From: Provencibacterium sp.
GTDB lineage: Bacteria; Bacillota; Clostridia; Oscillospirales; Ruminococcaceae
Length of the DNA stretch: 64,000 nucleotides
Assembly (NCBI GenBank): GCA_022792175.1
Contig: JAAWAN010000020.1
Coordinates: 60,745-124,744 of the forward strand
Direction of reading: 5' to 3'
Shown: positions 33,841-36,292 of the stretch, piece after piece
How the letters are laid out: every line of letters begins with the position of its first letter
Position numbering within the stretch: position 1 is the stretch's first letter
Program-made: the position numbers and the translations under genes
The notes under the pieces: model-generated
What the model saw: only the letters and a program-made list of their open reading frames with translations
What the model was told of the DNA's origin: nothing
Databases searched by the model: none

Positions 33841-34644
33841 TCAGTCCTTAGGACACTCCACTCCATAAACCTCCCACTGGCTGAGAGCGGGGAAGGGAGA
33901 GGGATCTTCCGATTGGATCAGATTGGAGAGGCGAATCCATTCTACCCGCTTTTTCTCCGGCAGAGGGATTTCATGCGGCTCCACCGATTTTTCCAACGGC
34001 TGGGTGAGCGTGCTTTTGTCCGAGAAGGTGAAGGTAACGCTGACCCAGTAGTTATCGTGCGGGAAGTCTGCGCGGGTGACGAGCACCATCCGGTCTATTT
34101 CCACCGTCCGGCCGAAATAGAGGGTGATTTCGGCATCATCCTGCCGGTTGATGCCCCAGGATTCATAGGGCCAGGGCCCATGCCAGGTGTTGCAGCAGTT
34201 GCCGTCAATGGCATTGCGTGCGGCGAAGACCGATTCTCCCCGCGTTTCCACATTGGCGGCGGCATGCGGGAACAGCCCGGGTTCGCCATGCTGGTCATAG
34301 GCATTGCGGGCAAGATTTTTGTAAAGCGCGATTTCTCCCTCTGTAGCCAGCCGGGCACGCAGCAGATGGCGGTCCCCATCAAAGCTTCTGGGGGAGTAGG
34401 AGATGTGCTTTTCTCCGAAGGGGATGGTATAAATAAGCGGGGAGGAGGCCAGATAGACGAATTCCTCGGCCATTGCGTCATCCAGCTGCAAGATGAGATA
34501 AATCCCTGTGCGGTCGCTGTGCAGCGAGATAGTATCCCCCTCCTGATAGGCCTCAGGATAAACAAGGCTGACCGCCCGGCTTCCGCTCGAGCAGCCCAGC
34601 GATTCCCCCTGCTTGTTTTGAACTTCCAGCGTCAGTGCCGACAT
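33841..34644 (-). CDS. Hypothetical protein with C-terminal galactose-binding/F5-8 type-C-like segment
   Basis: ARNAIDGNCCNTWHGPWPYESWGINRQDDAEITLYFGRTVEIDRMVLVTRADFPHDNYWVSVTFTFSD; start overlaps the MFS 3' end (operon). Confidence 0.55.
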   Translation of the reverse strand: MSALTLEVQNKQGESLGCSSGSRAVSLVYPEAYQEGDTISLHSDRTGIYLILQLDDAMAEEFVYLASSPLIYTIPFGEKHISYSPRSFDGDRHLLRARLATEGEIALYKNLARNAYDQHGEPGLFPHAAANVETRGESVFAARNAIDGNCCNTWHGPWPYESWGINRQDDAEITLYFGRTVEIDRMVLVTRADFPHDNYWVSVTFTFSDKSTLTQPLEKSVEPHEIPLPEKKRVEWIRLSNLIQSEDPSPFPALSQWEVYGVECPKD

Positions 34645-36002: not shown

Positions 36003-36120
36003 TATAGACTTTGCTCCTTTTAAAATGCTTTAGCAGAATGAAAGATATCAAGGATGCAAAGTCTGAGGACAGTGCTTTATCCTCCATGCAGCGTCCTCAA
36101 ACTCTGCATGGAGCAAAATC
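36003..36120 (-). promoter_or_regulatory. Predicted translational attenuator / 5' leader structure of MFS gene
   Basis: Hairpin CTCCATGCAG/CTGCATGGAG (36113-36104/36091-36082), loop TGAGGAC complementary to GTCCTCA (36070-36064), AGACTTTGC-A-TCCTT complementary to SD AAGGAGCAAAGTCT. Confidence 0.65.
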
Positions 36121-36135
36121 AATGCAAAGAATCAT
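36097..36135 (-). CDS. Putative leader peptide MILCIDFAPCRV
   Basis: ATG ATT CTT TGC ATT GAT TTT GCT CCA TGC AGA GTT TGA with SD GGGGAGG 8 nt upstream. Confidence 0.6.
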   Translation of the reverse strand: MILCIDFAPCRV

Positions 36136-36263
36136 TCGCGTTTCCTCCCCGTAATCGCAAAATAGAAATAGGAAGAAGGCTGCAGCGCCTTAAAACATGC
36201 CGGAGAAAGGTGTGTCGGGCATTGGGAAAACGGACGTCCGGCATAGGAGAACTTCTTTCGGAT

Positions 36264-36292
36264 ATTATATCATAGGCGCCTTAAAATGAAAA
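36264..36292 (-). promoter_or_regulatory. Candidate promoter for MFS leader (TTTTCA-N17-TATAAT)
   Basis: Minus strand -10 TATAAT at 36269-36264, weak -35 at 36292-36287. Confidence 0.45.

Follow-up and report, generated by a model that had tools for sequence, protein, structure and literature searches.

A probable translational attenuator with a conserved leader peptide and covarying helices upstream of a distantly Mef-like exporter gene in Clostridia

What is the role of an mRNA leader that holds a tiny open reading frame (ORF) together with several segments able to pair with one another and with the Shine–Dalgarno (SD) sequence of an exporter gene? We address this question in a stretch of DNA from Provencibacterium sp. 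(the window: all 64,000 nucleotides (nt) analyzed, from contig JAAWAN010000020.1), where such a leader precedes a gene for a major facilitator superfamily (MFS) protein on the minus strand. A sequence-only reading had proposed a translational attenuator controlled by a leader peptide. This remains the best reading; the peptide, the helix between anti-SD and SD, the hairpin, and the pairing of its loop with a downstream segment are all conserved with covariation. We conclude that the leader is probably a translational attenuator with 3 competing folds, which is ON when a ribosome is held at the Leu-Cys-Ile (L-C-I) codons of the leader ORF. The peptide conservation, the 4 covarying helices, and a folding switch point that matches the L-C-I codons are computed results; the stalling, the drug, and the substrate of the exporter are inferred.

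Orthologs that share 43–74% identity with the exporter come from 3 sources: whole genomes within the same taxonomic family and order, a species-level genome collection, and viral-labelled contigs, which contributed 2 ortholog loci. From the species-level collection, the best 80 of at least 587 confirmed exporter relatives were kept, and the leader was checked for those 80. About 92 of 94 MFS orthologs with enough upstream sequence have the leader, 90 by a degenerate pattern and 2 (L009 and L045) by a covariance model; in the remaining 2 assessable loci, L042 and L050, no leader was found. The assessable orthologs span Oscillospiraceae, Lachnospiraceae, and Ruminococcus, and plasmid-labelled records of Monoglobus and Subdoligranulum also carry the leader. 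The covariance model, built from 65 sequences including the window's own leader, matches a single site in the window's 3.05-Mb genome, namely the present locus (E 3.8e-22). Within the class, 29 of 391 genomes have a match to a model of the leader, and within the phylum 4 of 399 do. The element is therefore more than a chance arrangement, since the model finds this single genome site, the orthologs keep the element, and its helices covary. Among distant Mef-like paralogs, L014–L026 and L028–L030 gave no covariance-model match up to E 1, and L027 gave 1 weak match (E 0.0038). The exact hairpin pattern was not found in the viral contigs. One further model match (L140) falls in a repeated element of a non-coding stretch and was judged a false positive. 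At another locus (L116, ~1515–1640), a well-formed leader stands directly before the apparent 3′ end of an exporter gene, seemingly the remnant of a deletion.

A short translatable ORF with its own SD lies upstream of the regulated gene and is conserved as an ORF. Its consensus peptide is M-x-L-C-I-x-x-A-P-C-K/R-V/A-stop, and its 2 halves appear to be conserved in different ways. Codon 3 specifies Leu in 74 of 87 leaders, with all 6 Leu codons in use; its entropy is 1.97 bits at the third position and 0.89 bits for the amino acid. Codon 4 is Cys in 60 of 90 leaders, codon 5 is Ile in 61 of 90, and the next codon is Ala, Val, or Asp. Codons 3–5 lie outside all helices, and the distance from L-C-I to the stop codon is fixed while the length of the N-terminus varies (for instance, MLCIVFAPCKA, MQNISLPLCIASAPCRA, and MYLYMLLCSVFAPCRV). 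Because Leu-3 is kept through all 6 codons and the spacing of L-C-I to the stop is constant, the alignment indicates that selection acts on the nascent chain at codons 3–5, whose distance to the RNA switch is fixed. At the A-P-C-K-V end, Ala is encoded by GCT in 77 of 78 cases and Cys by TGC in 86 of 86, and changes in the hairpin (P1) carry changes of the peptide with them (APREV in L048 and L065, ALCRV in L004, and HPCRV in L091); since codon choice is near-fixed and the peptide follows the hairpin, these last codons are conserved mostly as RNA. In alignment A2, the codon directly after L-C-I (codon −2) almost always starts with G and specifies Ala, Val, Asp, or Gly (first-base entropy 0.33 bits), which may relate to the residue in the aminoacyl (A) site.

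The RNA itself is built from 4 recurring elements: element 1 (NCTCCATGCA, within the leader ORF), element 2 (TGCATGGAG), element 3 (GTCCTCRGACTTTGCA), and element 4 (AAGGAGCAAAGTC, the exporter SD). A segment termed 1′ (TGCARRGTYTGAGGAC) continues element 1 and covers the last leader codons and the stop. Elements 1 and 2 form P1, 3 and 4 form P4, which masks the SD, and 1′ and 3 form P3; P2 (GAGGAC:GTCCTC) can be either a pseudoknot over P1 or a plain extension of P3. Every complementarity listed by the sequence-only reading is present where it had been placed, all on the minus strand. The hairpin P1 is perfect over 10 bp, with the TGA stop in its loop; the loop (TGAGGAC, 36099–36093) is complementary to GTCCTCA (36070–36064); the anti-SD AGACTTTGCATCCTT (36064–36050) forms 14 pairs with the SD strand, with 1 bulged A; and the leader-ORF segment GATTTTGCTCC (36120–36110) forms 11 pairs with GGAGCAAAGTC, including 1 G-U. 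The last of these matches is specific to the window at its full length, its general part being the NCTCC:GGAGN core alone.

Covariation was counted on 65 sequences, with 500 shuffles and slid positions as controls. P1 is paired in 98.1% of cases, with compensatory changes at 5 pairs; P2 in 94.1%, with 5 pairs changed on both sides; P3 in 96.6%, with 4 such pairs; and P4, the SD-masking helix, in 98.8%, with 4 double-changed pairs. In each of the 4 helices, compensatory changes exceed those in nearly all of the shuffles and in the slid controls. In all rows of A2, the 3′ strand of P4 is the exporter SD itself. In several rows, among them L108, L110, L064, L093, and L075, 1′, 3, and 4 change jointly, which fits a strand 3 constrained to pair with each of its 2 partners. 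These data refine the first reading in 2 respects: it had missed the alternative helix TGCARRGTYTGAGGAC:GTCCTCRGACTTTGCA, and the pairing of loop and GTCCTC, which it took for an H-type pseudoknot, need not be one. The base pairing is conserved and covarying; as proof of a pseudoknot, P2 covariation was rejected, since the same pairs extend P3, and a rough energy estimate including a pseudoknot penalty still finds the P3 folds better in most leaders. The alternative helix excludes the hairpin as well as the SD-masking helix, and it predicts the ON state, namely a ribosome held at L-C-I.

To locate the switch, 75 leaders were folded with the ribosome footprint masked codon by codon; these are nested folds, which bear on stalling only indirectly. 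The energy needed to open the exporter ribosome-binding site (RBS) served as readout, and the probability of an unpaired SD was dropped as a poor measure, since P4 leaves the GGA of the SD in an internal loop. P3 is dominant for 1 position of the peptidyl (P) site only, codon −3 (in the window, Ile-5), at a mean probability of 0.80, and P4 has a probability of at least 0.92 from P-site codon −2 onwards. In 69 of 75 leaders, RBS opening energy is minimal with the P site at codons 4–5 (−4/−3). The median is 3.7 kcal/mol at this minimum, 8.2 kcal/mol in ribosome-free RNA, and ~11.3 kcal/mol with a ribosome near the leader stop; the window's own values are 4.5, 13.2, and 12.2 kcal/mol, respectively. 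The dip is lost (from −5.7 to −0.5 kcal/mol) once the sequence from leader stop to SD is shuffled. By computation, then, RBS opening depends on ribosome position, through an alternative pairing that frees the SD, and the switch point coincides with the codons under peptide selection. The best fold of the window's free RNA combines P3 with the segment GATTTTGCTCC laid on the SD, the second pairing of the first reading. A ribosome at codons 4–5 removes exactly this GATTTTGCTCC mask, so that the switch would be OFF in idle RNA as well as during free translation of the leader, and ON with the ribosome held at L-C-I.

We propose the following mechanism. Without a ribosome, the exporter SD would be masked by the anti-SD strand (P4) or, in an extended P3 fold, by the leader-ORF segment GCTCC. 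A ribosome that translates the whole leader to its stop would cover 1′; strand 3 would be freed and would lock the SD in P4, the OFF state. When the P site is occupied by codon 4 or 5, the Cys-Ile of L-C-I, the front edge of the ribosome would reach just the start of 1′. Held in this position, it would strip the 5′ arm of P1 and the GCTCC mask and leave 1′ free to pair with strand 3 (P3 and P2), whereupon strand 3 would release the SD and the exporter would be translated. The ribosome would most likely be held through the L-C-I nascent chain, by an antibiotic that targets the peptidyl-transferase centre or the tunnel entrance.

Related RNA stands before other genes, and these bear on the likely inducer. 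Three genes for CatA-like acetyltransferases (L135, L136, and L143) are preceded by a diverged copy, with the leaders MKFCIAVFPCKA, MKRGLDAAPCEA, and MKRGLDNAPCEA; the first contains F-C-I-A, a core similar to L-C-I. The proteins score 210–214 bits against a CatA family cut-off of 270 and contain the HHxxxDGFH motif. In addition, 1 Cfr methyltransferase gene (L142/L175, above the Cfr cut-off) is preceded by a related element, whose leader lies in another frame than the MFS leaders (L-H/C-A/T-K-S). This copy, with the leader ..RLHAKSDVLGDICME, maps to L142:1501–1622 and L175:2518–2639 (both minus strand); the Cfr gene is chromosomal, and an Lsa-type ABC-F gene lies before it. Neither the mobile, plasmid-borne cfr(B) and cfr(C) genes that were examined nor the CatA-like plasmid gene of Pusillibacter has the element. 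Genes of the CD3324 family (~88-aa Mor-like, putative DNA-binding proteins; NF040785) also have related RNA directly upstream (L134, L137, L138, L139, L141, L144, L211, L212, L221, and L222). Their leader ORFs are mostly longer, with L-C/H-A/T-K-S in another frame, and this RNA is apparently an undescribed second subclass of attenuator. A ribosome ~8–12 nt upstream of element 1 again gives P3 in several non-MFS leaders; in 2 of the 3 CatA-like leaders, P3 is weak or not seen under ribosome-masked folding.

These targets point to antibiotics of the peptidyl-transferase centre as the putative inducer class. Resistance to phenicols is conferred by Cat and by Cfr alike, so the simplest guess is an inducer of the phenicol type, at no more than about one chance in three. 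A broader and more tentative reading, possible though somewhat short of probable, is that Clostridia have in common a single, undescribed class of RNA that senses ribosome position; it would stand before several unrelated determinants against antibiotics of the peptidyl-transferase centre (Mef-like MFS, CatA-like, and Cfr genes) and before CD3324 genes, and its main form would use a new L-C-I arrest motif. In such a class, L-C-I would be sensed at a fixed distance from the switching helix, a ribosome would have to be held in that register to turn the gene on, and idle and freely translated leaders would stay off.

Several observations weigh against an attenuator switched at L-C-I. The motif is preferred, not invariant; codon 4 is also M, I, A, or E, and codon 5 also S, N, or A. 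The footprint is assumed, and a front edge 3 nt shorter shifts the optimum by 1 codon, while pseudoknots and cotranscriptional kinetics are left out of the folding. P3 is already present in the window's free RNA, so that the ribosome-free OFF state rests on a GCTCC:SD mask of non-conserved length. The majority of CatA-like genes in the class have no leader. Lastly, arrest by chloramphenicol favors Ala, then Ser or Thr, as the penultimate residue of the nascent chain (PMC8987054). The leaders follow this rule only loosely, the residue being mostly Cys, small in many leaders yet mostly outside the classical set; with the P site at codon 5, it is Cys in 60 of 90 leaders, Ile in 12, Met in 7, Ala in 5, Glu in 4, and Leu and Thr in 1 each.

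How do other explanations fare with the same data? The stall might instead occur at the C-terminal A-P-C-K-V-stop, as a termination arrest of the TnaC or MsrDL type that keeps P1 from forming and thereby opens the gene. Conservation in the peptide is indeed highest at A-P-C-K/R-V-stop, and the stop codon sits in the P1 loop; however, 1′ is covered by a ribosome at that position, the SD is then masked by P4 in 97–100% of leaders, opening the RBS would cost ~11 kcal/mol, and base pairing largely explains the conservation of this end through its near-fixed GCT and TGC codons. We regard this explanation as improbable. An attenuator of amino-acid starvation, reading Cys, Leu, or Ile codons to control an amino-acid or metabolite exporter, would account for Cys at codons 4 and 10, Leu at 3, and Ile at 5. 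Yet in one third of leaders Cys-4 is replaced by I, M, A, E, L, or T with the element retained, there is no run of identical codons, and the same type of element precedes CatA-like and Cfr genes, which belong to antibiotic-resistance families; of the 4 alternatives, this seems to us the least likely.

Could the small ORF be incidental to a regulator made of RNA only, such as a riboswitch or thermosensor? Such a regulator would fit the strong covariation of the helices and the reuse of the core in another reading frame before CD3324-family and Cfr genes. It fits poorly with a start and stop kept in ~90 loci, nearly always with an SD-like site, with a Leu codon 3 that draws on all of its synonyms outside the helices, and with the lack of an apparent bare sensor pocket, and we consider it quite improbable. 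Attenuation of transcription, intrinsic or by Rho, is a mode used by several macrolide-resistance leaders such as mefA/msrD (PMC10314930). In the present leader, however, neither P1 nor P4 has a U-run behind it, the 3′ strand of P4 is the exporter SD, and the single terminator-like site (36191–36176) is weak, at chance level, and upstream of the leader ORF; in the interval from leader ORF to gene, no terminator-like structure was found. We give this explanation slightly less weight than the RNA-only regulator. The preferred reading thus remains a translational attenuator opened by a ribosome held at L-C-I, whose features in the window are collected in Table 1.

Table 1. Features of the exporter leader and gene, with positions in the window
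Feature	Position	Strand	Evidence
Promoter-like TTTTCA-17-TATAAT, TG before second hexamer	36264..36292	−	10/12 matches
Leader ribosome-binding site GGGGAGG	36144..36150	−	SD-like sites also precede the leader ORF in relatives
Leader ORF, 12 codons, ATG..TGA, MILCIDFAPCRV-stop	36097..36135	−	Consensus peptide kept in ~90 loci
Codons 3–5 (L-C-I), proposed stall site	36121..36129	−	Peptide conservation; RBS-opening minimum at codons 4–5
P1 5′ arm CTCCATGCAG, inside leader ORF	36104..36113	−	P1 covariation, 9 pairs scored
Element 1′ TGCAGAGTTTGAGGAC, 5′ strand of alternative (proposed ON) helix P3 and extension P2	36093..36108	−	P2/P3 covariation
P1 3′ arm CTGCATGGAG	36082..36091	−	P1 covariation
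Element 3 GTCCTCAGACTTTGCATCCTT, partner of 1′ (P2 and P3) or exporter SD (P4)	36050..36070	−	P2, P3, and P4 covariation
Element 4 AAGGAGCAAAGTCT with exporter SD AAGGAG (36019–36014)	36006..36019	−	P4 covariation
MFS exporter gene, 456 aa	34632..36002	−	PF07690, 2.9e-29

The leader ORF and its strong SD, as well as the TATAAT box (36269–36264), are as the sequence-only reading described them. The −35 hexamer, TTTTCA, is a 4/6 match 17 nt upstream of the box; 1.3 sites of equal quality are expected by chance, and the distance to the leader SD is ~115 nt. Among ortholog leaders, 36 of 89 have a promoter-like pair within 110 nt upstream (10.9 expected), and several relatives have perfect TTGACA and TATAAT boxes, spaced by 17–18 nt, directly upstream of the leader. 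In the window, a hairpin, ATGCCGGA/TCCGGCAT (36244–36197, minus strand), also lies between promoter and leader ORF.

Judged by its sequence, the MFS gene encodes an exporter with similarity to TIGR00900 (161 bits, under the cut-off) and, more distantly, to Mef; at 94 bits against a cut-off of 675, it falls outside the Mef(A) family (NCBIfam NF000245). A profile search of solved structures gave no match for it. An ORF at 33841–34644 (minus strand), with a weak match to F5/8 type C (discoidin-like) domains, has 13 nt in common with the end of the MFS gene and probably shares its operon.

Homologous loci, when aligned, show a conserved peptide and covarying helices rather than the lack of conservation that would have counted against the first reading. 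The leader is real and conserved, and apparently an undescribed, new variant of leader-peptide translational attenuation. In Rfam release 15, the window has no match at the gathering threshold, and those admitted up to E 10 are at chance level; a literature search for the APCKV motif returned dengue epitope papers only, and no publication on the leader was found in a search that left most subscription papers outside its reach. If the mechanism holds, an intrinsic exporter lies silent in hundreds of gut Clostridia until a ribosome-targeting drug switches it on, the peptide is a new drug-dependent arrest sequence, the exporter family gains a testable class of substrates, and the common RNA before CatA-like and Cfr genes links separate resistance genes to one sensing device. 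The RNA is ready for annotation libraries, since the covariance model's single genome match is the element itself.

Known systems share parts of this design. The mefA/msrD leaders MefAL (MTASMRLR) and MsrDL (MYLIFM) likewise place a leader peptide before an operon for a macrolide-class MFS exporter, and the exporters are distantly related; these leaders act by transcription attenuation, and macrolide arrest uses a +x+ motif, Arg/Lys-X-Arg/Lys (PMC10314930). The consensus peptide of the present leaders does not contain this motif of the mefA and erm leaders. Unlike mefA/msrD, moreover, the present leader has no terminator, and its exporter is Mef-like only at a distance.

In cat-86, catA, and cmlA, the leader ORF ends within the RNA that masks the SD, and a ribosome held at an early codon frees the SD of the resistance gene. 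The present leader shares a short ORF ending in SD-masking RNA, and CatA-like genes are among the targets of its element. The L-C-I..A-P-C-K-V peptide is not known to be related to the cat leaders. In the cat systems, the SD lies in 1 hairpin that opens directly under the stalled ribosome, whereas the present leader would switch through a separate 1′:3 helix, with 3 mutually exclusive folds. In ermC, segments 1–4 have exclusive pairings, ribosome position decides between them, and the SD of the resistance gene lies in segment 4; similarly, the present leader sets 1:2 and 3:4 against an alternative pairing, with the SD in segment 4. The stalled ribosome of ermC covers segment 1, so that 2 pairs with 3. 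Here, the peptide differs, the gene encodes an exporter, and it is the end of segment 1 that pairs with 3; because 1′ is itself the partner of strand 3, the stall would have to occur earlier.
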